Shown here: positions 3,501 through 60,864 of the stretch, one piece after another | How the letters are laid out: each line of letters begins with the position of its first letter | Numbering within the stretch: position 1 is the first letter of the stretch | Assembly: GCA_029964075.1 (NCBI GenBank) | Contig: CM057150.1 | Coordinates: 1,426,001-1,490,000 of the forward strand | Reading direction: 5' to 3' | DNA length: 64,000 nucleotides | Origin: Patiria pectinifera | Lineage: Eukaryota > Echinodermata > Asteroidea > Valvatida > Asterinidae | Notes under the pieces: model-generated | What the model saw: the letters and a program-made list of their open reading frames with translations, nothing else | Database searches by the model: none | What the model was told of the DNA's origin: nothing | Made by a program: the position numbers and the translations under genes

Positions 3501-6156
3501 CTCTTTAATTATTTGGTTCTCATTTCCGATCGACCCTATTTTTCATCTCCCGAACAAAGAAAAAACCAATATATTTCCCACAGACCCGGTCTGGAACCCT
3601 ATTCACACAAACACAAATCGCAAATGAAAACAGAATGGTGAATATTAAATGCGGGCAGACAGTCTATGTGTTATTTAATAAGCTATTGAAAATGAATACA
3701 TGGTTTGAGGCAAATTAAGGCCTACAGCAAGCAGTGAAATTCCAAAGGATGAGAGGATGTTGCCTCTTATCATATTTGGTGTCTATAGTCTCCCTTTACT
3801 GGTATGTCATGGCTGCCACTAGACCGTGTACATCTTGCCAAAAAGTTATATATTTTATTCAGTGGTATCAAAGCACGATAAACTCATCGCAATAAACAAA
3901 CCTAGATATTTTGATTCCTTGTATTGTTTTACCAACCGACCCTCTGTCAGAGGCAAAAAAATTTAAGAACCTACAAATACAAAGGGACGCCCAGTGTCAA
4001 CATAGGGTTTGTACGTAATACCACCTTCAAGTTGTTCCTAGGGAGCTATTGACAGAGTACATTTTGTTCACTAGTCAGAATTTTTTTTAAAAGAATACTC
4101 TAAAATAATATATATATTCATCTTTTTTTTACTAGTCCAAATCTTATTCTTTCTTTCTCAAATAACAAGTTTTTGTTTCCTTATTGATATCCTAGAAATA
4201 ATCATTTGTTATTAAACCCAAAACAGCTGTGGATTTGTCGAAGACAAATACAATATCTTTCTTCATATGTTACTTTTAAACATTATTATGAACATAAAAG
4301 CCAAGTAAATTTGGCTGTGTATAAAATATTTTAATTCCATCTCACGTATGATTACTTCAGCTTAATTTTACAACATTGCCTCACCTCTGATACGGAGGTC
4401 TGAACCTCCTCTTGTAGTGGTGAAATCACTCCTTGTAAGAGAACACCAGTACTTTCCCTCGTCAGCCACTTCAACTGATTTGATAGTCAGGGGAAAATCA
4501 CCACTAGCCACAAAGTCATATCGAGAAGCATTCACAGGTCCAGGTGTAACTGATGGGTCGGAGAATGAGTCGTACTGGTAGATCAGATAACCCCCTGAAA
4601 CACTATCTGCGCCAAGCTCAGTATGTATCCACTGGAGTTCAGTAACGACAATACCTGGCGCAATACAAGTCACTACAGTTTGCTGATTGATATTAGCCCA
4701 TCCTGCTGTGGTAATAATAACACTCTGAGCTGCTGTCCCTGAGCAAAAAAAAAGTGCACTTGTGAATTATTTTAGGTTAATTCTGGATAAGAGTTTTAAA
4801 ATGTACGAAATTTCAAAGGACACGTCATACTTGTAAATCGTTTTTATTTGGCAAGTAGACTAACCAAGCTTTCAAAAACAGTTTTTATTTTTCTTCTGCT
4901 GCACCTGGATTAATTTTAATCAAGGCTTGAAGTTTGGGGAAACGGAAATAGTTTTCCCCCTATTTTGTGATGGGAATTTGAGCTCCCCTCTGTTACAGTT
5001 TTTATGCTTCAAAGATATTTATTATTGGTTGACTATGAAGTCTGATTAACCCTCATTATCCACCACTTCAGACTTTTAACTCAAAAGATGAAATATGACA
5101 TTTTTGTACCATTGAAAAAAAAAGTATTTTTGTTACATGAAAACATATTTTGGGTTAAAAGTGGAATTCCTATCTTCTATCAAAGTGACCTCAAAATGAT
5201 ATCCTTTGATGCACAGTTATTCTGATATTGCATCTCAAAATCCGTCCCGTCAGTCACAATTTACTCCTTCGTTATATTTTTGTCCCGTCTGTCACATATT
5301 ATTTTGATCACCTCTATATTAAAAACAAGGTAAACATAAGACTCTTTGTACTTCATAGTATAGTTTATGTCTTTCTTAAAAATAATATGATTGACCAATT
5401 TATCAAAAAAGTAAACCAAATTTTAATTATAAAAACACCCTGTTCAGCCTTTTGGGCAGTCTTCAATTACTTTACCTGCCTTCTTAGCCATGTCAATAAT
5501 ACTTTGCTACTGTTTGCATGTACTGTGCATGCACACTACACAGGTGGTATATTAATGGTATTGGGAGGGGGTCCCTTAACCCTAAAGCAGCTGGGTTGTT
5601 TGGGACCATCTCTCAAACTTTTGCCATATTGCTTGTTTACTGTTTGGTAATCAGTTGATTGCTGCCTTCTCATTGACATATTGCCGATCCCCTCATTGAC
5701 GGTGGTATTGGTAACTGTCTGAGTTTAGGAGGTGTCGGTGTTTTAAACCGGTTGGAGTCTGGATGCTGATAATTACCCGAGCCTTAACCGGAGCCTTTTG
5801 GCTCGGGTAATGATCAATAACCTGACTCTAACCGGTCTTAAACAGAGTTTTTTAACTGACCCAGTACACAGTTATTCCCTTCAACTGATTACCAAACAAG
5901 CAATATGGCAAAGGTTTGAGAGATTAATCAAATAAACAACTTGCATCCTACAGTTATGTACTTCACAGCTGTCCGTATTCCCCGTTTTCGTCATAGCCGA
6001 ACAATTTTACAATCCAGAGTACAGAAGAATAAGATAACAATGTTACATTTCAAACAATATATTAATAAATCAATGACAGGTCGAAACTTTTTTGTTACCT
6101 CCATGAAAAAACGACAACCCAGCTACGATGATTTGAAAAATGACTACCAACGCCAT
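171..6156 (-). CDS. RTK-C: third Ig receptor of the array, 5' part only
   Basis: Partial gene running off the left edge. Exons seen: 6156-6099 (signal peptide), 4738-4385 (V-type Ig) and 500-171 (Ig 2), all with good AG/GT sites and phase 1. The first exon and Ig 2 match RTK-A and RTK-B in sequence and position. A tyrosine kinase end is therefore inferred but not visible. The intron between the V and Ig 2 exons holds a decayed duplicate V exon and LINE debris. The start is 12.4 kb from the RTK-A 3' end, similar to the 11.9 kb between RTK-A and RTK-B. Confidence 0.75.
960..1143 (-). pseudogene. Decayed duplicate V-type Ig exon of RTK-C
   Basis: The minus strand reads FFYDSTSNSAIILGDN, then NYPLTVKSVEVNDEGKY, closely matching the second half of the RTK-C V exon (FPLTIKSVEVADEGKYWC). 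One base is lost at the YWC codons, which shifts the frame. The 5' half of the exon is absent and unrelated sequence starts at about 1144. It is a relic of a tandem V-exon duplication, probably skipped in mRNA. Confidence 0.7.
1144..1740 (-). mobile_element. LINE fragment (linker and early RT region)
   Basis: Read on the minus strand, 1740-1380 gives a peptide with HIDNKHAAAWSVLREVTHKK, GWYQHISNLLG and a later LKKLKN. This is typical of the stretch between the endonuclease and reverse transcriptase of non-LTR retrotransposons (Craft/RTE-like). The part from about 1380 to 1144 is open in one frame but I do not recognise it. The fragment abuts the broken V exon. Confidence 0.55.
1925..2260. repeat. 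Dispersed 335-bp repeat, copy 1
   Basis: Matches 25957-26290 in the same orientation with about nine single-base differences. I do not recognise the family. The shared part starts TTCTTGAATTTACTACCTTA and ends CAGAATGGGTG. Confidence 0.8.
2560..3190 (+). mobile_element. LINE reverse-transcriptase fragment
   Basis: The plus strand contains IPLPYKKGD, NYRGITLAPLATKIYNSML, and then FVDFSKAFDSVNRK and NYGIPEETIGAIATMYEN, which are reverse transcriptase motifs of a non-LTR element. Stops (for example TAA right after KIYNSML) and frame changes show that it is dead. It lies in the RTK-C intron, in opposite orientation to the gene and to the LINE piece at 1144-1740. Confidence 0.75.
3191..4384. other. 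RTK-C intron, no recognised gene
   Basis: AT-rich sequence with short T-runs. I see no exon, RNA gene or terminal-repeat structure in it. Confidence 0.5.
4385..4738 (-). CDS. RTK-C exon 2: N-terminal V-type Ig domain
   Basis: A 118-residue exon opening TAAQSVIITTAGW, with cysteines in VTC and KYWC and the ADEGKYWCSL signature, exiting in DLRIRG before GTGAGG. It is open throughout, phase 1-1. The acceptor is TGCTCAG after a T-run. Confidence 0.85.
5608..5924. mobile_element. Foldback (inverted-repeat) element
   Basis: Outer arms 5608-5657 and 5882-5924 are inverted copies (CTCAAACTTTTGCCATATTG against its complement), one with a short insertion. Inside are two more nested stems: AACCGG...CCGGTT at about 5738 and 5839, and TAATTACCCGAGCC paired with GGCTCGGGTAATGATC. 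There is no coding sequence. It lies just 5' of the V exon of RTK-C, in intron 1. Confidence 0.7.
6099..6156 (-). CDS. RTK-C exon 1: signal peptide
   Basis: Encodes MALVVIFQIIVAGLSFFHG and ends GGAG before GTAACA in phase 1. It is 58 nt, the same as RTK-B exon 1, and the ATGGCG start is shared by all three genes. It was found by looking for the RTK-A/B pattern, so the identification rests on paralogy as well as on hydrophobicity. Confidence 0.75.
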
Positions 6157-18542: not shown

Positions 18543-37143
<18,601 letters not shown>

Positions 37144-43389: not shown

Positions 43390-44760
43390 CACAGTAACTG
43401 AAGAACAACGTTGTTCCCAGGGATCACAGCTCCCGCCGAGTTCAACGTGCCATTGCCAGAGACAAAATCTATCCACCCAAAAATTGGCTCTTAAAGAAAA
43501 AGCCTCCAGCGCCATTGTCAAACCCAAGACTCTCTTGGTCACCACCTTTCACCCCAATCTCCCTCTTCTTCGTTGAATCACTAATGACAACCATCACATT
43601 CTTCACACTTTAGATCGCCTTGCCCGCGCCATCCCTGACAGTCCAGTATTGGCTTATACAGGCTGAGTAAAAAAAAAAAAACGGAACCCAAACTCCCAAA
43701 AATATATTTCATACTTAAACAAATATGTAGCACCAACAATAATGATGACTGGAAAGCTACTTTCATAAACCACTGTTAGATGAAAAAAAATCTCAAATTG
43801 GTTGCTCAATCCGTTCAAAGAATCTCATCATTAAAACGCAATGACCTTAACACCTGTTTCGTAAAACAATAGCATATTTATTGTGTGTTCGGACTGTTTG
43901 GAACAACAAAGAAAATGACACAGTGTACTTGTTTCAACAACTGTCAACAACTGTAGTACACACTATCTTTATTAACAATCGTGCTTAGGCAAACAGTATG
44001 ATTTATAAAATCAACTTTTTAAAAAGACGGTCCTTCAAAAGGACTTTGTGTAATGTAATTTACTTTTAAATTGAGGTTTTATCGCGGGTCATGTTTGAAG
44101 CCAATTGTGACGACGATTCTTGAAATCGCAATTTTAGACGAAAGAGGTTTTAGGGTCATTGTGTTTAAACGGTGATAGACTTTGAACGGATTGAGCAATT
44201 TCAGTAATGCTTTAAAAGTAGATTATGAAAATGGCTTCCCAGTCATTATTATTTTTGGTGCTGCATATTTTTTTTTATGAAGTATATATTTTTGGGGTTT
44301 GGTTTCCGCTTTTTTTTTTTTTAACTCACCCTGTAGACGCCCCTGCAAGTTACGAGACCTGATTGTTCGATCCGAAGTCCCTACCTTGGATGCATCCCCT
44401 CCCACCAAGCATGGTGCTTTTAAGTGCAGTTCCAGATGTGTTCTTTGCCAGATCCACATCCAGGAGTCTGACTCCTTTTCTGGCCACTCCTCTGGCACTA
44501 CTCACAGAATCATTGGTAACATCACTTACAACACCTCTTATAAAATATATCTCATCTCTTGCAGGGTTTGTGGAGTACAGTATGTTGGGGAGACAAAGAA
44601 CACGCTGAAGAAGCGTTTCTATGGTTATCGATCAAATGTCAACACCAAGAGACTGGACACCCCTGTTGGTCCCCACTTTAAACTAAAACCATTCAATTTT
44701 TGATGTTACAGGGTATAGAGTCACTTAGCCGTCGCAAGGACTCGGTTCGTCTAAGCATGG
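43390..44760 (+). mobile_element. Penelope-like element fossil, split by a MITE
   Basis: Plus-strand coding traces of the late reverse-transcriptase region (to 43656) and of the GIY-YIG endonuclease region (44336-44703; motifs KIYLISCRVCGVQYVGET and KKRF) flank the MITE at 43659-44333. The element is a broken fragment with several breaks in the first part. Confidence 0.7.
43659..44333 (+). mobile_element. MITE with about 190-bp terminal inverted repeats and TA target duplication
   Basis: Begins CAGGCTGAGTAAAAAA and ends with the inverted TTAACTCACCCTG. TA lies directly outside each end (43657-43658 and 44334-44335). The arms pair over about 190 bp. A Tc1/mariner-type origin is inferred from the TA duplication. 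It is inserted into a Penelope-like fossil, so it is younger than that copy. Confidence 0.8.
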
Positions 44761-49006: not shown

Positions 49007-49084
49007 TTACACCTTCTCGCCTGCTTCTTGTTCCAGCACCACTTCATAATCGCTGTCTTGGAAATCCTTGATTGATATGAATTC
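49007..49084 (-). CDS. RTK-B exon 19: C-terminal tail
   Basis: Encodes [16 protein letters not shown] and nine further residues, then TAA at 49009-49007. It has the same 78-nt length as the RTK-A last exon. The first RTK-A tail tyrosine (EYISIKDF) is Phe here, while the second (DYEVV) is kept. Confidence 0.85.
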   Translation of the reverse strand, partial: EFISIKDFQDSDYEVVLEQEAGEKV

Positions 49085-52000
49085 CTGTCAACCAAATTTA
49101 AGGGGAACCAACCGTTATATTTGCGTAGCGCCCTCAACTCGGGAAATAGGGAAAATCACTGTTTTTACTCATCAATCTGTTTGCATTGACTTATAATTAC
49201 ACTAAGATGCGAGCGGTACCGACAGTTTATCTAGGCAATATTTTAATCAATAATAAATAACAAATATCAAGGATTTGCCTGCAAAGTAAAGTTGTTTTCT
49301 CAATGTCCTTAACAGAAATGTAGTTACTTTGTTACTTGAATTCCCTTTGTTTCAAAAGGAGTACCAATGGCTGTTCCCTAGTAGTCCTGATGATAGAAAT
49401 CGCATACCTTTCCCTTGTTGATGTACTTTTCCAGCTCGGCACTGATCATCGTAAAGGTCAGTCTGTTGTGTGGATCCTCATCCCAACATCTAAGCATCAT
49501 CGCATACCTGCAGGAAAAAATAGTATGCTGTAATAAGCCGTTTTGGACAATATTTAAAACAGATTCAGGGAAAAGAGTTCAACTATAACAGGGGAAAAGA
49601 AAAAAAAATAGCGAGATTGTACTCACAATTCTTGTACGCAGTGTTGTGGTTTGGGCATACGGTAGCCTGACTGAAGCTTATCAATCATCACATTCGCTGT
49701 CATAGCGGGGTATGGACGAGCACCTTTATATACACAATGCAAATAACATCTTTTAAAAAAAAAACCATAGATTTGCAGTTTTTTTAAATTGAAGACGATA
49801 TTAAGATATATTTGCATAAAATCCAAGAAAGCGAGCACATTTTTCTGCAGTTCGTCTTCCCGAGAAACTCAAACCATGAACCCCAGGATTGTTTTGCTGC
49901 AGATGTACAATGTATGAAATGGCGATCTTTTGGAATGAGCGTACGAACATTGCGTGTGGCCTAGCTCACATTCATTCATGCTGTATTTTGCTTCAACGTT
50001 TGACCAAAATGGAAACTGCTTTTGCTTGTTGTTTTATTATTCAGACGTAATTGCCGAAAATATTACCTAGAGTAACTATCTCCCACAGAAGTACGCCATA
50101 AGACCATACGTCACTCTCTGTTGTGTACACGTCATCCAAAATGGACTCAAGGGCCATCCAGCGCATGGGCAGTGCACCCTGCAAAATTAATGTGTCCACA
50201 ATTATTACAACTAATGATTTTGGAAGTTTAATGGAACCCCCAAAAATCCTGAATTTTTCTTCTCTTGTTTTGTCTTCGCCACACTCACCTGTGACCTTCG
50301 TTCATATACTCGGATGTTCATGACGTCACGAGCGAGTCCGAAATCAGACACCTTACACGTCATGTCCTCAGCCACAAGCACGTTACGGGCAGCAAGGTCC
50401 CTGTGAATGCACTGTGTATCAACAACGATTATTTCACTTAATTTACTGAAGCTGTCTTGATTTTTTTTTGTCAACAAAACTCCCGATCATAAAATTATAA
50501 TCATTTAGTGTACATGTCAGATTTGAATCAGGTGAAAACAGAAGGTACCTGTTGAGATGAGATGAAGGCCATTCCATCAGCGGCATCCTTGGCAAACTTC
50601 ATCAGATCCTTGCAGGTAAGTGACTTACTCATACCATGCAGGTTGCCATAGACACGCCCTCCCTTACTACGACTGTCTTTAAGAAAGTCTTTCAGATTGC
50701 CTTGGGATAGATATTCCACGATGATATATGGCGGGTCTGTGAAATAACGAGAAGTTAGGAAGCTTACTTTGCCGCTATCAATCAGTTAAGCCTTCTAGTG
50801 ACAATATGACCGATGTTTAGAAACACCATTTTACAAAACTCTCACATCTTACAACACGTCAAACTACCTTATTTGAAACTAGTAAGCACAAATAAAAACA
50901 AAATAAGGCTCAGTGCAACATCTGTTCAACCTAACGCGCCCTTTCACTTTGCACTAAATAAGCCTCTGTTCTGATGACGTCACACTTTGTTCACATGTGC
51001 ACTTTCCTATGGAGCCAGTGGGGGCCCACGGGTCCACTGAGCACCATAGGAAAGCACATACGAAAACAAAGTGTGACGCCATCAGTACATCAGGCTTATT
51101 GTATTGATTAGAATTGAAAGTATGTAGATGCGTTCAGAACTCACTCTTTTGCTTTATAGTAGTACAAAAGTATTAAATAGCACCATTAACTTTCCTGACA
51201 AAGTCCCACAAAAACTTTGAAATATCTTCCATGCTTTGCGAAATCACGTCGGTTGACTGTTTTACTTTATACCTTCCTCTACACAGAACCCAAGGAGCCT
51301 GACTACATTACAATGGTCTGGTAACTTCTTCATTAGGTCTAGCTCCCTCATCATGTCAGCTTTATCGCTCTGGCCGGCTCCCTCTGCGGAAGTGAGTCCA
51401 TGAAAAAAAATAGTAGTTATCGTTTGACTAGTCATCAATTCATGACCGCGATTTTTCTCACTTCCTTTCTCCTAAAGTAAAGTAAGTCTGTCCCGAGCCA
51501 ATGTGGCTCATCGGGCCGGCGTTTATCTCCGGTTTCAGTAGCATGAAATGACTGAAAATATTTCTACTCCCCCTGGATGGGATGCTAGTCCATCGCAGGT
51601 TACTCCACAGCTAATGCCGGTACCCATTTATACTCCTGGGTGGAGAGGGGCAAGTGGGGGTGAAGTGCCTTGCCCAAGGACACAATATATGACCAGCGGC
51701 TGGATTCGAATCCTGGACCCTCTGATCATGAGTCACGAACCCTAACCACTAGGCCACACACTCCCCTTCTCCTAAAACTCTGACTTAATTTGATGCTCCA
51801 ATCTACAAACTGGCAAAAGTGACAATATTTGGCAAATTACCAGGAAGACTATAACATCTTCCTCATAACATTCCATCTAACCTTTAAGTGTCTTGACAGC
51901 AACCAGTTTGACCTTTGACCCCTGTGTCATCCCCGAGGCTTCAGCTAGAAGCACAAGACCGAAGTTGCCATGTCCGAGCTCTTTGATGATCTTCAGCTGG

Positions 52001-55000
52001 TCACGTGGGAAAGCCTTATGTGAAGTTGGGACATTTGCATAATCCCCCCTTTCTGGTTCCTGATTGGTTGGCCGACTAATGACGGCTAATTCTAAAATAA
52101 ATTAATTCAAAACATATAAGCACCTCAAATAGTTGCGAATGTATAATTCGTTTTATTCATAATTCACACATTTTATTTTGAGCTATCTGGTAACATTAGA
52201 AAGTTCTCCATCTCGGCTATGTTGCCGAGAATAAATGTGAGAATACCTCATCAATTTTGAATCGTTCAGGTTTTAATGTCTGTAATTATGTTTTTCATTG
52301 TTTTGAATGTGGCACGTTTTGCTTGATTTTATTCTCGTCATTACTGGCCGAGGTATCCATTAAGCAATTTACTTCATTTTAAATTAGTTTATTGGGTGCT
52401 ATCATACCCGTTATTTCTTGGAAGGGTGACTGCGCATCGGATTGGGAAATTGTGGAATGACGTTGTACGTCTGTCCTGTTAAAAAAAAAGCAAGAAGAAG
52501 AATAAGCCGACTTGCATTGCAACAAAATGGATAATCAAGCACGACCGAGCATCAGGTTGTGTAATAAAGAAGGCTGCATTTCTTTCCTGTTTTCTCGCAC
52601 CGCAACAGCACTGAATACTCAACCAGAAACCATAATCGCCTTGATTTTATATAAGTTTTTATTGTGTCGGAATGATACTTAAACACTCACATCTCAAAAC
52701 GGAGGGCAATCTGTTATTCAGTCGCGGGCATTTTAAATTAACGATGACTAGGCCTATGGGTCATTGAACTTACATTGACAAATCCACGGTCTCTCTGTCC
52801 TCTGCAATTGAAAGCAATAATCTCAATTAAACGTCAATATTGGTTAAATTATATTTAAGGTGAATGTGAAAGGCAGGCCAGGGCGTCTTCTATACTATTG
52901 TGGACTGTGAGTTCATTTCAATTGATTGTTTCTGTTTCAATTCAATTTAAATTTCATGTTTGTGTGCAGAAGCATATTTTGAAAAACATACAGTTGTAGT
53001 CAACAAAAATCTAAGACAATAGACAGTGTTCCGTGACGAAGGCATATCACACTTCTCAGTCTTACCTTTGCCGTGATTTCCAAAGCTCCTGTTTGCGAAG
53101 ACTCCGAGCACGACGATGGCAATTAACACGAACAGTCCAACGACGACACCGACAATGACACCGACACTGATCCCGGGATTGTCACCAGGCATGTCGGTTG
53201 CAGGCGGATCTTTCACTTAAATATGAAACAAACAAACAACCAACCCAACAAACAAACTAATCAAAGTTTTGCTACTTCAAACACTTCTACAGCATTTGAA
53301 ATTTGTATTGCTACTAAAATCATTATTTTTTATTCGATTTTGAACTCATTATCTTACTTAAATGCCAATCAATTTAACATGACATCCTCGCCAACGTTTA
53401 CCTATAAAGTGTACGACTTTAGACTTGATTATACCTTTCCTGACATCCGCTGGTTCACTGCACAAACCACCAATGCAAAGTCTGGCGCGGACTGCTTAAA
53501 TGGCCCCTACAGCTCGTCTTCTTCTTTTCTGTGATGACGCACACCATTCAGAGAGGGTAACTGTCTGATCAGACTCAATGCAAGCTCCACACTCCTGCCA
53601 GGCATCGTTGCCTTGGTATTGGACTTCCAGCTGGATGCATCCATTCTCCTCCTTCAACCACTCGACTTTCACGGAACCAGAATACTCGATGATTTCCTCC
53701 GCCAGAAACTCGATGACGATCCCTGGAAAGATGTGCCACAATTTGGAGCAATAAGTTCCCAGCATGTAGTCCAGTCCGTTACAAGTCATCCGGTCCCAGT
53801 TCAACTCGCAAGCTATTCAATATGAACTTTTACAAAGATTGTTTCCTTTGTTATTGTTCATCCACTGCTAATTGTGACTTGACTTGCGGCTGAATCTGTG
53901 ACGGACTCGACTACATCCCTATCACTTCTTTCAGAATGGGGAGCAAGTACAAAAACCCAACTGAGCCGCTAAGTTAACTGTTTAATTTTGTCATCGATTA
54001 GAGTCCAGGTCAGAGTTAGCAAAAACTACAGAAAACCAATTGAGCCAGTTGATATCCGGTTCGTAAGTGACTTCGTCATACACGCGCACGCACCACTGAT
54101 TACGAGCGCCCATTGGTTAACACTCAAGTTGCGTTAACTTCCGGTTCCATTGGTGCCATGCCACACCATGTACAGTAAGTTGAGATGACGTCACACTTAC
54201 GAACCGGATACCGATTGGTTCGCTTACCTGTTTCCGGTGAGGGCGGGCTTGCTGAAAGGATGCAGATATGTTAAGCAAATCATGAAAACAAGAAGAAAAA
54301 AGAGCTGACTTATCTGAGAAAAATGAGTTCCATTGATCGTCTTCATAAGAAATGCACTTTTGAAGATATAAAATCTAATGCAATGAAAACATGCTTACAT
54401 CTGCTCAGATATCCTGAAGAGTGGGCATTGATGATGAACAGAGCACACTGTTCGAAACGTCGACTTAAAAACAACTCAGAACCACACAACTCAAGAGACA
54501 TTATTAGTATAATTATTACTCTTCGCTCAAATAACATAACAATAAACAACCTGTTGATTTCATAAGTTTCTATAAGAACATCTAAAGACAAAATAAAAGC
54601 GGAACTCTAGACCGTACTTACGCAGTGTATATCCCGCTGTGTTGCCATAACCAATGCTTTCACCAATGGCATTCCTGGCATACACCCTGATCTCATACTC
54701 TGTGTAGTCATCCAGACCCGTTGCTGTGGATGTTGTCTTCCCATCTGTCTCTTCAGTGAAGACCTCTGTGTAGTCTGATGTCTTGATGCAGCTGGCACGG
54801 AATGACTGAGTCTCACCGCCATCATAGCCAGCAGTCCATGTCACAATCAGAGACTCTGCCGTCCGCTCAGTGATCTCAACTCTAGTAGGCTTGTCTGGTC
54901 GTTCTGCAGGAAACAGGAATGTGTAAAGACAACTTCAACTAAATGAGTAAAACGCACATCAATAACAGAACAAGAGAATTTTGTACAGGATATCGGTTTC

Positions 55001-58000
55001 AATAATTATACATGTTGTCTGTGGATTATTATAGGAGGACAACAGTTGTCTTTATAGGAAACACAGGCAGTATATTAATTGTCGGTCTTTATTCTTATTA
55101 TAATTATTTAATGATATTCCAATCATTTAATAATTGACTTTATCATTTAATTGTATCATCTACGCCCCAAGTTTAATACATGTCAGACTGTTCAGTGATC
55201 GATATAACATGACAAGACATCTTATAGCGGAATACTTCATGTGCAACGTTATTTTATATTCCCGATTTTTTGAAATTATCTTACTTATTCCAGTAAGTGT
55301 GATGGTCAGTGAGTCTATTCTTCCGATGCCATTCGAACTGTTGCAGGTGTACACCCCGTAATCAACTCCGGAATCTACGGCGTTGATGGTTAACGTGCTG
55401 GTGACTTCAAGTGCAAACGTTCCGTCTCCACCAGATATCTCATTTGTAACAAGGAATTTTCCGTCCTGAGAATCACTAGTTATATCCGTGTTGTTTAGAC
55501 CATACCACTCCATGATTGGCCAAGGATTGCCCACAGCAATGCAGGTCAAGACAGCATCATCACCATCTTTGACTCCTACTTCGTTCATTGCTTTATTGGT
55601 GATGTTGACCTCGTCTGTGGGTAAAAATGATAGAGGTAATTAATTTAACCGCACCGTGTCTAGTTTATGCAGTCCCTTCAATTGGAAAAAAAGTGTTTTT
55701 TATTAAACATAACAAATCTGAAGACACAGATGCAGTGTCAATCTAAGTATGGTGTCTATGTCCATAAAATAATGGGAGTAACTAAAATCGTTGTTCATTT
55801 GTCTGTCCAAGCTTAGAAAGCGAGCGTGTAAATACCTTTAGGACTGCCATCAAACAAGTAAGAAGATAACTTGAACAAGTAAGACGATAAATGTAATAAA
55901 TCGAAACCTGTTTTAATCCGGACACGCTATCAATTTCATCGGCACAGCTAGTGTTCTCAGCATTGGAGGGCGGGGAGGGGCTGGATCTAACATTGGGGGC
56001 ATTTTTGAAGTATCCATGTTGAAAGGTAGATATCTTTTTGGACATCGGTCCCGGCCTCTGTAAATTCAAAACGCTTGGGAGGGGGCGCAATCGTAAAAAT
56101 ACACCCGCTCGTGAAAAGGAGCACATTTTCAGTGGTGGTGGTGGGGGGACGGGGACATTATTTTGTATGGGGGAGGGGGGTGCAGCTACGCCGCTGATTC
56201 CATCACGAAGGCTCCTCCACTGGCGAAAACATTGAACTAGCTATCATTCAGATAATCCATCACGGGGTAGTTGAATTGTACAATTTCATTCAATGCAACG
56301 GTTGCTCCACCGAAAGGGGGCGTCGTGAGTGTACGGTTATCACGGGCACGGATTTGTTTATCCTCCCAATGAAAAAATAGAGCAAGGTAACATGTAAATC
56401 TGTTATGGTAATATCGTTACATCATAACTTACACCGCACAATAACAGGGACTTTAGTTGAGACCACATCACTACTGGGATCGTCGGTAGGTACACCGTTG
56501 TTGGTTCTACAGGAGTAGTACCCAGACTGCTCCCTTGTTATTCTACCAAGAGTCAGTACACTGGCCATACTTATGTCACTGTACACGGACATATCAGAAC
56601 TTGGTGCAATACCAGGACCTTGCTTCTCCCAAATGATGTCATCGGGTCTTGGTTTGGCATCTACCAAACAGGACATGGACACATAGCGTCCTTCAAAAAC
56701 AGGGTTTGCGGGTGATGACACTGCTAAAAATACAGGAACATCTGATGGTGAAAACAATAAAGAAATTCGAACACAAAGAAAATCATTGTATGATCAAAGG
56801 AGACAAACATAAAACAAAACAAAGCAATGTTTGGTGAAACTTGACCAAGAGCCAAGTAAAATTCGACCACTTAAGACAGAATGGCTATTGAGTAGAATAG
56901 AATTCCTTTCTTGCACTTTTGAACACAATGGGCCGGACATGGAAAAAATTGAGGTCGTGGCCACGTGCTAGTCAATAGACATTTCGCGTAGTAATATAGG
57001 GCAATGGCTTTGTTTCCGGTGTCACATGAAAATCCGACTCCTATGAAAATCGGACCTCTATTTCTCGATTGTTGGTTGATCCCTCGCACGTGACAGGTCA
57101 CTCTCCCGAAACAATCCTAAAAAATAGCATCGTATCGTACTCACGCGTGCGCAGTACTACCAATGAGTCCACATTCCATGGAGTCGGATATTCACGCTAC
57201 ATCGGGATATGCATATAGTGAACCTTGTGTGCATTCACTTTCACGGAATCAAAATAACAAAATATGTCTTCTAAGATGGCCGCTACGTATAACAGTGGAC
57301 ATTCACTAAATTCGAGTCACGATTTACTCCCATCAACTGAATCTACAGTGAAATGTATTCAGTGGAATTTATTTAATTCTTATTTCAACAAGGTAGCCCA
57401 TTCAGTGGGATCAACTGGTCTCCCATGGGGCCAGAAATTAAATGAGAAGAAATTACATTTTCAGATGTGGGAAGGAAAACCCCAGAAGGATTCTGTGGAA
57501 AACCCAATTCACGTAGATGCCCAGGGCAGGAATCGAACCCGGGTTACAGCGGTGGAAGGCGAGGAAAGTACAGCTAGCCTGCCTGAATTGATTGAGTTTT
57601 CACACGAGTTTCCACTTTTTTCAGTGTATTTCAATAAAAAAAAATCGAAAAATTGTCTGCTGCCTTTTCAATCTTTGGGATTTATGGAGGATATCGTTTA
57701 CTGTTCATAAACTTACATCGTACGTCGATAGGTCCCAGCGTTCCTTGAGGGCTAACCGTCCACGAAGCTCTCCGTGCAGCACACGTTATGTTGTTTCCAC
57801 TATCCCCCCTTCTCGGAGTAAAGTTCAAAATGCTGGTAAAATTGAAGCGGCTACCTGCTGCAGATGAGCTCGTATTGGTACCAGTTATAGGTGAGCCTCC
57901 ATTGGACCAAACCAGAGTCCAGTCGTCAGGATATCCCATGCCTGCTGTACACGTCAGTATAGTTGGAGCATCTTCAGTCATTGCTGCGCTTCCAATGATC

Positions 58001-60864
58001 ACAGGGGTTGCAGGGGGACCTGGACAAGCAATAAGAAGGGTCTTCGTCAGTTCTGCCAATCAAGTACTGAGGTGAACATTTCGCATTACTGAAGTCACCA
58101 TCAAAATGGACTTCATTTTATAGATGCATTCCCCGTGGTATTTAGTATTTTAACACGAAAACATTTTGTCCTTAATTGCTTTTTTTTTTGATTACTTGCG
58201 GCCAAACAATAAATCCATTTTATTCAAGGTGTAGAGGTAGGCTGGTTCCCGCCCCACAATCAGTATCTATTATCTATGGACCTGGAGCCAGTCTGCTCCT
58301 ATAAAGGTGATTACCGTTTTGTCTTTTTGAGGGTTTCAGACATAGTGATAAGATGTAAGGCTAGGTTTACACTATCTTCCAGGCGGCCACGGCAATCACG
58401 TTTCTGGCCACCGTGGACAAAACGGTATGGACGTGAGACAACGCCGGGGGACGGGATGGGCAAACGTGACAGTCCGTGATTGCCGTGGATGCCGGGCCAG
58501 ATTGTTAAACTGTCAAAAAAAAAATTGCAACGGCAGTCACGGTGCGGATGAGAAACCTAGTAGGTCGTAGTAAAACGGGGTGAACGCAACAAAACGTGAC
58601 AGTACGTGATAGGCCGTAACAAAACTTGGAGTCGGTCCGTACGTATACTAGTGGGACGGGAAGCATGTGCATTCCCCGGCATATCTCACGGTCCATTCAA
58701 GTTTTGTCACGTCTGCCGCGTTTAGCGGGTGTTTTGTCACGGTTGCTGCGCGTATTGTCCAGTTTTGCTTCGTTTCTCACGGCAAGCTAGGGTGTACGGT
58801 AGCCGTTTCGTCGCGTTCAATCACGGCGCGTCCAGTTGTGTGACGGTTTACAGGCCCGGTGCGACGCGGCGCGTTGCGTTCTACTATACGGTCTGATACG
58901 GCGAACGCGGTCTGGGAGGGAGTATAAAAGCATACAATTCTTTTCATACCGTGGGCACAAACTTGCTCCGAAGCTGCCCGGCGTACAAGTTTCATCCGTA
59001 GAAAGCCTTGTTGACAGAACGCGGAAAACGTGTCAGACTTTGATAAGAACGTGAGGAACGTGAGGGACCCCAGAGGGACCCCATCAGAACGTGACAGGCC
59101 GGGAGGGAACGTACTGGCATCCGTGGTGGACCGCGGGCCGAACCGTAGTGCGCCTTGGAGCCTCCGGGACTCAGCAGCCCCCTTTCCCCCACGGCCCATC
59201 ACAGATACCGTGATAGACCGTGAGAAAACTTAGCAAGACCTAACAAAACTTGACTAAGGAGAAAAAAATTGCCAAAATCCCACGGCGCACTACGTTTTGG
59301 GCAAACGGGGCTGCCGTGACCGCCGGGAGCATAATAGTGTAAACCTAGTCTAAGATTGGAATAAAACCAAACCTAACATGGAACAAATCCAGTCGCAGTA
59401 AGATTATTTGTACTTATAATTTGTCCCAAAATCTCTTTCCCTAATTATGTTGCCCGACCTTTTCTACACTTGGGACTAACAGAAACTATGTTTCTCATGT
59501 TTACAATGGGTAACGAACGATAAGACCATGTTATTTTACATTCAAATAATGCTAACATAAAAAGGGAAATTAATACTTAAAAACACATTCTTTTAATTGA
59601 TGTGTGTTGAAAATACAAATTAAATGATTATGCTTAAAAAAATTAAAGATCAAAATTCCCCTACTCCTTCCGCCTAAGAATTAAGAGCCAACACCATGAT
59701 TCTGAAATTGCTATATAACAATGTTTGCCAAATTAGATATAGACATTTGTAATTGGAGGCAACGACATACTTTCCGAGATCAACGAACTTTTACTCTGGC
59801 TGTAATATAAGACAACCTGGAAACGGTAGGAAAGTTATAACGAATACTGACCTCTTACGCGCATTTCCTTGGTGGCTATGTGGCTTTGGAATGGACTCGG
59901 AGTGGAAATTTCACACCAGTACATTGCTTCGTCCTCAAATGTCACCGAATTAATGGTCATTGGGTATCCTGGGGAGTCCATGTCCAAGGAATAGTGGGAG
60001 CTGTTGTGGTTAATAAACTGATCCGTTATCACCAACCACTCTAAGAATGGAACTGCGTTATAATTAACGATTGGTTCCGCAACGGGACTTATGTGCCAAT
60101 TTAGGGCAAATATCGGAGTAGTATCAATCAGTGTGCATGTGAATACTGCGTCCTGCCCAGGATCTACCCAGTCAGGTCCAGTTAAAACAAGCTCCACGAA
60201 CGCCTCTGTAACAGAAAATACAAAAAAAAAAAAGGCCAAGGCGTTATAATGTTATGAGTTACACGTGGAATTCAGTACTATTTTAAATGTTTGAATTCAG
60301 TTTCCCTCAAAACTGTCTTGTATGTGAAGGTTAGCGGGTGGCGGTATGAACACCGATGATCTTGCATTTTTCAATCTGTAACACGATAATCCGCTCCAAA
60401 ACCTTACAACTCATATAGAATAGATATTTAGACTTGTCGGGTGCCCGGCAGAAGGGCATATGAGCGTTCTGACGCAAAAATCATTTTCAAGAAAATTGCA
60501 TTGAAAGGTTCCATTGTTCCCTCGCGCGCATTGTGTATCCAATGTTCTCCCACGCATAATATAAATCGTACGAATTTGAAATTTGTCCCACATATGAATC
60601 ATAAGTTTAGGAACAACGTGTATTAATTTCTGACGAAAATGTTATAATTTCACTAAAATGGAGGCAGTTTTCTGCATATGCCCTTTTGCTGGGAACATTT
60701 TGGTCATTACGCTACATTGCATAAGGGCATATGCACACTTATGCCCTTCTGCCGGGCACACGACGTTAATAAAAAAAAAAAAACAATTCAATGAAGTTGT
60801 TCTTACCTCCTTGAAAACTCAATAACCCAATTGCAAAAATGTGAAAAACGAGTGCCGACGCCAT
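49007..60864 (-). CDS. RTK-B: Ig/FN3 receptor tyrosine kinase paralogue with an internal stop
   Basis: Tandem paralogue of RTK-A, same strand. Exons in coding order: 60864-60807, 60205-59852, 58019-57717, 56741-56433, 55614-55285, 54903-54622, 54251-54228, 53722-53435, 53215-53066, 52801-52774, 52475-52408, 52091-51882, 51383-51273, 50736-50549, 50411-50289, 50178-50067, 49723-49627, 49507-49408, 49084-49007. Splice sites and phases all match, 3213 nt in total. The frame holds a TAA at 53498-53496 (codon 629), in the FN3-like domain just after the RRRR site, although the transmembrane and kinase exons downstream are open and well conserved. As read, the product is a secreted ectodomain of 628 residues; without the stop it would be a 1070-residue receptor. 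It may be a decoy, a polymorphic null, a young pseudogene or an assembly error. Confidence 0.85.
49408..52091 (-). CDS. RTK-B exons 12-18: tyrosine kinase domain
   Basis: Exons 52091-51882, 51383-51273, 50736-50549, 50411-50289, 50178-50067, 49723-49627 and 49507-49408. They contain the glycine loop [30 protein letters not shown] and [12 protein letters not shown]. All catalytic residues are kept and there is no stop. The C-lobe motif reads [12 protein letters not shown], with Leu replacing the usual Pro. Divergence from RTK-A is very low in the middle exons (3 of 112 nt in 50067-50178) and clearly higher in the last two (10 of 33 residues in 49408-49507). Confidence 0.93.
50957..51100. repeat. 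Foldback repeat in an RTK-B kinase intron
   Basis: Arms 50957-51012 and 51043-51100 are inverted copies (AATAAGCCT..., GTCACACTTTGTT, ACTTTCCTATGG against complements). The total length of about 144 bp suggests a small foldback MITE. Confidence 0.75.
51480..51771 (-). mobile_element. Full-length tRNA-derived SINE in an RTK-B kinase intron
   Basis: On the minus strand: A box GTGGCCTAGTGGTTAGGG, B box GGATTCGAATCC, then TTGGGCAAGGCACTTCACCC, GGAGTATAAATGGGTACC and an end in TACTTTACTTT. This is a recognisable SINE layout of marine deuterostomes. Confidence 0.8.
52408..53215 (-). CDS. RTK-B exons 9-11: transmembrane and juxtamembrane segments
   Basis: Exon 53215-53066 has a stalk ([14 protein letters not shown]) and a hydrophobic helix ([18 protein letters not shown]). 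Exons 52801-52774 (28 nt) and 52475-52408 (68 nt) encode the juxtamembrane part ending QSPFQEITG. The RTK-A tyrosine at SAYQDIT is replaced by Phe. These exons lie downstream of the in-frame stop. Confidence 0.8.
53435..53722 (-). CDS. RTK-B exon 8: FN3-like domain with RRRR site and in-frame TAA
   Basis: The exon encodes [10 protein letters not shown], then [31 protein letters not shown] and TAA at 53498-53496. RTK-A has GAA (Glu) at the aligned codon, so a single G-to-T change on the coding strand explains the stop. The 61 nt after it remain alignable with RTK-A (RARLCIGG) and end in a good GTATAA donor, so the exon has not decayed otherwise. A protein ending here would be almost identical to the N-terminal furin product. 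Confidence 0.85.
54032..54222. repeat. Inverted repeat in an RTK-B intron
   Basis: Arms 54032-54080 and 54184-54222 share GAACCAAT and ATATCCGGTTCGTAAGTG-type sequence in opposite orientation. The second arm ends a few bases before the microexon (54228-54251), overlapping the likely donor side of its intron. Confidence 0.7.
54228..54903 (-). CDS. RTK-B exons 6-7: FN3 domain and 24-nt microexon
   Basis: Exon 54903-54622 (residues 452-545) is an FN3 domain with [11 protein letters not shown] and [13 protein letters not shown]. Microexon 54251-54228 encodes SPPSPET. Between it and the next exon the intron carries an inverted repeat (54032-54222). Confidence 0.85.
55285..56741 (-). CDS. RTK-B exons 4-5: Ig domains matching RTK-A Ig 6 and Ig 7
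   Basis: Exon 56741-56433 (residues 239-341) has SMSC and YYSC cysteines with [12 protein letters not shown]. Exon 55614-55285 (342-451) has LTC and YTC with [15 protein letters not shown]. Both are phase 1-1 and correspond one-to-one with RTK-A exons 7 and 8. Confidence 0.85.
57390..57600 (-). mobile_element. tRNA-derived SINE (long variable arm type), copy 2
   Basis: Same family as 39700-39925, with the GAATCGAACCCGGGTTACAG block and CAGCGGTGGAAGGCGAGG. It lies in the RTK-B intron after the exon at 57717. Confidence 0.7.
57717..58019 (-). CDS. RTK-B exon 3: Ig domain (matches RTK-A Ig 4)
   Basis: Residues 138-238, [10 protein letters not shown] with LTC and ITC cysteines and the [14 protein letters not shown] core. 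It joins directly to the counterpart of RTK-A Ig 6, so RTK-B lacks equivalents of RTK-A Ig 2, 3 and 5. The T-phase-1 end codon fits the next exon exactly. Confidence 0.85.
58361..59348. mobile_element. GC-rich terminal-inverted-repeat element with internal subrepeats
   Basis: The ends are exact inverted copies of CTAGGTTTACACTAT (58361-58375 and 59334-59348). The interior is far more GC-rich than its surroundings and is built of diverged subrepeats such as AACGTGACAGTCCGTGA and CCGTGATTGCCGTGG, alternating in orientation. No transposase. It lies in the RTK-B intron between the V exon and the next Ig exon. Confidence 0.8.
59852..60205 (-). CDS. RTK-B exon 2: N-terminal V-type Ig domain
   Basis: Residues 20-137. 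Cysteines are in FTC and MYWC, with the EDEAMYWCE strand-F signature. The length of 354 nt equals the RTK-C V exon. The sequence is strongly diverged from the RTK-A V domain while the downstream FN3 and kinase parts are close. It is followed by an intron that contains a 1-kb inverted-repeat element. Confidence 0.85.
60807..60864 (-). CDS. RTK-B exon 1: signal peptide
   Basis: Encodes [19 protein letters not shown], a clear hydrophobic signal peptide, ending GGAG before GTAAGA in phase 1. Start codon, length and phase match RTK-C exon 1 (58 nt each). It defines the 5' end of the coding region, with 3.1 kb of repeat-rich DNA beyond it to the window edge. Confidence 0.85.

Follow-up and report, generated by a model that had tools for sequence, protein, structure and literature searches.

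Drosophila SDR, a secreted decoy of InR, has a gene of its own and is a soluble relative of a receptor tyrosine kinase (RTK) ectodomain. DAF-2B of C. elegans is an ectodomain without a kinase that comes from an RTK gene by regulated alternative splicing, and it has been tested (available part of PMC7041946). Secreted VEGFR2-type decoys are isoforms of working receptors in which an intronic poly(A) signal follows the ectodomain exons. An antisense block of U1 at the upstream 5' splice site frees such intronic poly(A) sites, and these yield secreted decoy RTKs (available part of PMC3826338). The last FN3 domain of Sevenless (dROS1) has a poly-arginine run, placed in the loop that corresponds to the cleavage loop of the insulin receptor. 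The halves of the insulin receptor and of Sevenless remain associated after cleavage in this loop (available part of PMC11743138).

The window is a stretch of 64,000 nt from Patiria pectinifera (C22:1426001-1490000), and the genome searched was 613.5 Mb in 1,020 contigs. The window holds two tandem RTK genes, RTK-A and RTK-B, both on the minus strand. RTK-B has a premature stop codon. Like DAF-2B it would give an ectodomain without a kinase from an RTK gene, but through a nonsense codon in a conserved exon, and its product is predicted. Unlike SDR, RTK-B retains all of its kinase exons. It has an intronic poly(A) signal after the ectodomain exons as the VEGFR2-type decoys do, but these are isoforms of working receptors, whereas in RTK-B the AATAAA is at chance level and the donor is modestly weaker. 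In the array to which RTK-B belongs there is a basic site of furin type, probably in the FN3-type domain nearest the membrane, as in the insulin receptor and Sevenless. The array differs from them in its FGFR-like kinase and Ig-rich ectodomain, and in RTK-B the stop follows the site and no membrane half is left. RTK-B also resembles the young unprocessed pseudogenes of tandem receptor arrays. The duplicate is complete apart from a single nonsense lesion, and broken siblings lie nearby. It has fewer lesions than c2236, the sole other broken copy in which the kinase side was read.

RTK-B was assembled by homology to RTK-A and to a sister copy, B', together with splice sites and phase. The model has 17 exons and 16 introns, all of them GT-AG with matching phases. 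The frame runs from the ATG of the signal-peptide exon to the terminal stop in exon K8 and has 1039 codons including this stop. The sole in-frame stop ahead of the natural end is a TAA at codon 629. The layout is a signal peptide, four Ig domains, an FN3 domain, a micro-exon, the furin-site domain, a transmembrane (TM) segment, and an FGFR-like kinase (Table 1). The signal-peptide exon is identical to that of B' across the 120 bp compared. RTK-B has the ectodomain of an Ig-type RTK, with a signal peptide, Ig and FN3 domains, and one TM segment (Ig and FN3 by Pfam, signal peptide and TM by hydrophobicity). It also has the VAVK, HRD, and DFG motifs of the kinase. When the RTK-A kinase was compared to the PDB, FGFRs made up 59 of the best 60 of 2,492 rows. 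FGFR1 aligned with an E of approximately 3e-88 and the top row, labeled EGFR, with 6e-98.

Two Ig-like minus-strand ORFs (139-561 and 4371-4766) are present in the first 5,000 nt of the window. They resemble the Ig ORFs of RTK-A and RTK-B and are probably the 5' part of a neighboring copy, c1400. The region 43660-44110 is a dispersed repeat with many 83-87% copies genome-wide and inverted partner pieces adjoining. The stretch 43695-44105 had been considered as a 3' UTR and was rejected as it proved to be part of a dispersed repeat.

Table 1. Exons and features of RTK-B and the homologous furin-site exon of RTK-A, in window positions.
Feature	Position	Strand	Remarks
RTK-B signal-peptide exon	60807..60864	-	phase-1 donor; hydrophobicity judgement
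RTK-B Ig1 (V-set) exon	59852..60205	-	Pfam
RTK-B Ig2 (C2-set/C1-set matches) exon	57717..58019	-	Pfam
RTK-B Ig3 exon	56433..56741	-	Pfam Ig
RTK-B Ig4 exon	55285..55614	-	Pfam Ig
RTK-B FN3a exon	54622..54903	-	Pfam fn3
RTK-B micro-exon	54228..54251	-	24 nt; inferred via splice sites and phase
RTK-B furin-site exon (FN3-like)	53435..53722	-	288 nt; phase 1-1; stop-bearing
RTK-B RRRR furin-type site	53514..53525	-	
RTK-B premature TAA	53496..53498	-	GAA in RTK-A and B'
AATAAA in intron 53216-53434	53329..53334	-	also in B'
RTK-B transmembrane exon	53066..53215	-	hydrophobicity judgement
RTK-B K1	51882..52091	-	juxtamembrane, glycine loop, VAVK
RTK-B K2	51273..51383	-	
RTK-B K3	50549..50736	-	
RTK-B K4	50289..50411	-	HRDLAARN and DFG
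RTK-B K5	50067..50178	-	
RTK-B K6	49627..49723	-	
RTK-B K7	49408..49507	-	RLTF where RTK-A and B' have RPTF
RTK-B K8	49007..49084	-	C-terminal tail and normal stop
RTK-A furin-site exon	24853..25125	-	GAA at homologous codon

The initial annotation of this DNA had described a GAA-to-TAA difference from RTK-A that ends the RTK-B frame five residues past RRRR. Both the position of the stop and the difference were confirmed by reading the assembly directly, and B' also has GAA. A TAA at this position was found in RTK-B alone among 20 genomic copies of the exon, and this disabling lesion is thus absent from the close paralogs. The annotation had also given eleven exons downstream of the stop, with splice sites, phases, and catalytic residues all kept. 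Only nine were counted here (TM and K1 to K8). Their splice sites and phases are kept, but the donor of the stop exon itself differs. VAVK, HRD, and DFG are likewise kept, but RPTF is altered and the glycine loop reads GHGNFGLV compared to GHGAFGQV in RTK-A and B'. RTK-B also carries one V to D and one K to N change relative to these two genes. Rescue of the stop by readthrough or editing was rejected, as TAA is the least leaky stop codon and Glu cannot be obtained by A-to-I editing.

No Pfam family was found for the domain encoded by the furin exon. Its best match in a PDB profile search (E 0.11) was to a protease and not to FN3, and profile comparison with FN3a gave no support. An AlphaFold2 model of the RTK-A furin exon was built from a two-row alignment (mean pLDDT 79, pTM 0.66; five models spanning 79 to 45). 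It has a strand at 47-50, a helix at 51-58, the RRRR in a loop, and a strand at 69-78. The best Foldseek matches of the model were cytokine-receptor and titin domains of the FN3 type, and were weak (best E 0.04, none at or below 0.001; query TM-scores 0.5-0.6). On this model the RRRR probably falls within a loop of an FN3-like domain next to the membrane. Thirteen distinct unbroken sequences were aligned, leaving out A' (one residue different) and c1289 (identical to c1191). Six cysteines are invariant among them, four before the furin site and two after, and R-[RK]-R-R is kept in all 13. This conservation argues that the domain matters in the family. Since the halves of the insulin receptor and Sevenless remain associated, cleavage of the working copies would by analogy probably give a two-chain membrane receptor without release of the ectodomain. 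The RTK-B chain ends before the TM, at the first residue of the modeled strand 69-78, and not at a domain border. The modeled last strand and two of the six invariant cysteines are removed, so the product would not be a clean natural ectodomain. The upstream Ig and FN3a exons are whole, and the domains that they encode could still fold.

The sister copy B' was matched at C22:2341478-2354813, approximately 0.87 Mb from RTK-B. With introns included, the two genes are 96.9% identical across 5,140 alignment columns and 91.4% identical across 4,241. B' is a paralog by position, although the haplotypes may differ locally in copy number. Were B' part of a second haplotype of the entire block, the 6 kb that separate RTK-A from RTK-B would be expected near B' as well. 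Besides dispersed repeats, this stretch was found in the window alone (40 of 7,935 candidates scored), and B' was rejected as a false haplotype duplicate. The match between RTK-B and B' ends approximately 70 nt beyond the last exon. The spacing of RTK-A and RTK-B is 28.6 kb compared to 136 kb between their counterparts.

The furin exon was searched against the genome and gave at least 18 matches at the DNA level and at least 21 at the protein level. Every match lay on C22, in the interval 0.05-2.4 Mb. One copy accounts for two protein rows, which leaves at least 20 copies. Eighteen of the 20 retain the basic site, the exceptions being c2219, which is frameshifted, and c1772, which is degenerate. 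The exon is unbroken in 15 of the 20. Besides RTK-B the broken copies are c2193, c2219, c2236, and c1772. Copy c2193 has a different TAA after the furin site and, on its own strand, a furin exon and a scrap of K8 with no other exon found in the 18 kb read. Copy c2219 has frameshifts, the same TAA as c2193, and Ns nearby. Recurrent selected truncation, with c2193 as a further case, was rejected. The TAA is common to c2193 and the frameshifted c2219 and c2193 is nearly exonless, and the two were therefore counted as one older event. Copy c2236 (C22:2228501-2238500) is A-like and has a frameshift and a TAG in the furin exon. It was considered as a second gene damaged in the furin exon alone, but on the kinase side K5 is damaged and RPTF has become TQTF. 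Because of these its sequence is that of a decaying general pseudogene. RPTF is thus altered in both RTK-B and c2236. At Ig4 and K1 a stop was present in none of the best 15 rows (at least 66% and at least 77% identity, respectively), and the lower rows for both exons include split or stop-bearing copies.

Copies c1191 and c1289 (C22:1191443 and 1289664) encode an identical furin-exon protein and by sequence are a very recent duplication. More distant kinase and Ig relatives were present, among the matches listed, on C22 at 2.4-3.0, 9.4-9.6, 13.4, 15.4-16.1, and 25-34 Mb and on C9 near 7.0-7.5 Mb. Judged from these alignments there is a very large RTK expansion on C22 and beyond. No fitting report of such an RTK expansion was found among the literature matches listed.

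Changes in RTK-B and B' were polarised with RTK-A as the outgroup, and those that could not be polarised were omitted (31 before the stop and two after). After the stop there were 6 synonymous and 9 nonsynonymous changes in RTK-B and 6 and 3 in B'. Before the stop there were 6 and 14 in RTK-B and 13 and 15 in B', or 3 and 8 and 5 and 6, respectively, without the furin exon and the likely converted FN3a exon. A second kinase outgroup gave 5 and 9 for RTK-B and 5 and 3 for B' in the exons after the furin exon. Compared to the neutral expectation B' was constrained both after the stop (p 0.005) and before it (p 0.006). Constraint was not detected in RTK-B, in which changes are few (p 0.09 after and 0.31 before). 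The direct contrast between RTK-B and B' was not significant (Fisher 0.40 after the stop and 0.37 before), and neither was that between the two parts of RTK-B (6/14 before and 6/9 after, Fisher 0.72). The part of RTK-B before the stop is no more constrained than the part after, and thus nothing shows that the ectodomain alone was kept. The unconstrained share of the RTK-B branch, taken from the kinase, was 0.09-0.34 depending on the earlier constraint assumed, with ranges of approximately 0.01 to 0.95. The selection data allow a young stop, and an old stop is also compatible with them. Four of the nine nonsynonymous changes after the RTK-B stop fall in two glycine-loop codons. This cluster was seen in RTK-B alone. 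A genome-wide search for a donor of these changes with a degenerate pattern gave an exact match in RTK-B only.

Synonymous divergence between RTK-A and RTK-B varies by exon. It is 0.06 in FN3a, 0.09-0.13 in K3-K5, 0.22 in K2, 0.5-0.7 in K6-K8, 1.05 in Ig3, and 1.4 in Ig2. Exon identity is 92-97% in K2-K5 (20478-22174 and 50067-51383) and in FN3a (28935-29216 and 54622-54903). The FN3a exon of RTK-B is closer to RTK-A (dS 0.06) than to B' (dS 0.14) and was likely converted. The 60-nt intron flanks of FN3a, K3, K4, and K5 aligned no better between RTK-A and RTK-B than shuffled sequence. Only two of 28 flanks aligned better (upstream of Ig4 and downstream of the furin exon). The simplest reading of the likeness would be exon-limited gene conversion, the alternative being strong synonymous constraint. 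Conversion may perhaps have been templated by spliced RNA, as three neighboring exons are alike and their introns are not. Since K3-K5 are homogenised between RTK-A and RTK-B while the introns are unrelated, the intact catalytic motifs of RTK-B are weak evidence of kinase use.

A premature stop with exon junctions downstream is expected to trigger mRNA decay. Nine junctions lie downstream of the RTK-B stop and decay of its mRNA is therefore expected. The stop would be tolerated if its exon were rarely used. Joining the micro-exon to the TM exon would yield a kinase that still spans the membrane but lacks the furin-containing domain. The exon suits this, as 288 nt with phase 1 at both ends keeps skipping in frame, and the downstream frame and splice sites are intact. 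Its donor is GTATAA in RTK-B and GTAA in 18 other copies, c1772 being without a donor. The RTK-B donor is weaker than that of B' (7.16 compared to 9.12 bits; U1 duplex -5.7 compared to -6.6 kcal/mol). It is not the weakest of the family, however, since c634, c52, c1022, and c2273 share donor letters that score lower (5.19 bits, -5.0 kcal/mol). GTATAA also serves as the K2 donor in both RTK-B and B', and the acceptor of the furin exon is the same in the two genes. Besides the stop the RTK-B furin exon has three synonymous and no nonsynonymous polarised changes, and the conserved cysteines and basic site speak for the importance of the domain. Skipping is unlikely on this evidence. An error of base calling in the assembly is distinctly unlikely. 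A single base in one assembly is concerned, and near-identical copies hamper the placement of reads. The change is a substitution and not an indel, however, and misplaced reads would copy a sister, while the TAA is absent in the other 19 copies. The next codon, GCA, is unlike that of RTK-A and B'; c2193 and c2219 have it too. This codon and the donor both differ from RTK-A and B', so the stretch is distinct in RTK-B.

RTK-B may alternatively be a dedicated secreted decoy, in which Ig1-4 and FN3a bind the ligand of the sister receptors without signaling. The RTK-B frame is open and undamaged through the signal peptide, Ig1-4, and FN3a, and a transcript that ended at the intronic AATAAA would escape decay. 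This signal lies 162 nt past the stop and approximately 100 nt into the intron, with GT-rich sequence further down. Among the 16 copies compared within 400 nt of the donor, AATAAA was found in RTK-B and B' and is absent in 13 of the 14 others, the exception being c2273 (+374). A U1 block at donors releases intronic poly(A) sites (available part of PMC3826338), and the RTK-B donor is weaker than that of B'. Against this, the chance probability of AATAAA in an intron of this length is approximately 0.24, B' has the signal without the stop, and four other copies have lower donor scores. The initial annotation had proposed a natural soluble ectodomain, and this was not supported. The stop lies inside the FN3-like domain and the chain ends in half a domain, decay is expected, and constraint is no stronger on the ectodomain than on the kinase. 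A dedicated decoy is distinctly unlikely. That RTK-B is a decoy at birth, combining the stop, the altered 5' splice site, and the intronic poly(A) signal with kinase exons that have not decayed, is the least probable of these readings.

The best explanation is that RTK-B, as part of an array that evolves by birth and death, recently acquired a nonsense mutation and is a young null copy (probability approximately 0.62). It is one of approximately 20 Ig/FN3 RTK genes in a recently expanded array on one chromosome. Its mRNA would be mostly removed by nonsense-mediated decay, and the scant protein would end in half an FN3-like domain and form no useful receptor. The downstream exons would look intact because the mutation is young and the catalytic exons are refreshed by conversion. 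The null-copy reading is supported by the presence of the TAA in RTK-B alone among the 20 copies with GAA in B', by the four other broken furin exons, and by the detection of constraint in B' and not in RTK-B. The RLTF change, at a motif altered in c2236 too, the nine downstream junctions, and the loss of a modeled strand with two invariant cysteines also speak for it. The non-significant Fisher contrast and the glycine-loop clustering count against it, as do the kept splice sites and the occurrence of one premature stop in 1039 codons. The initial annotation had offered a very young change, polymorphism, bypass by splicing, and a decoy as options, and the first of these is the best fit. The stop is perhaps still polymorphic.

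If RTK-B is a young null copy the finding is ordinary, yet it records how copies arise and are lost in a large animal RTK array and offers a clean comparison of RTK-B with B'. Should the form with the stop prove to be both secreted and polymorphic, it would be possible to trace within a single species how a decoy receptor originates. The RTK family may merit more attention than the stop. It combines an FGFR-like kinase with a V-set-bearing Ig ectodomain, a furin-type site that is conserved and lies in what is probably an FN3-like domain, and what may be exon-limited homogenisation.
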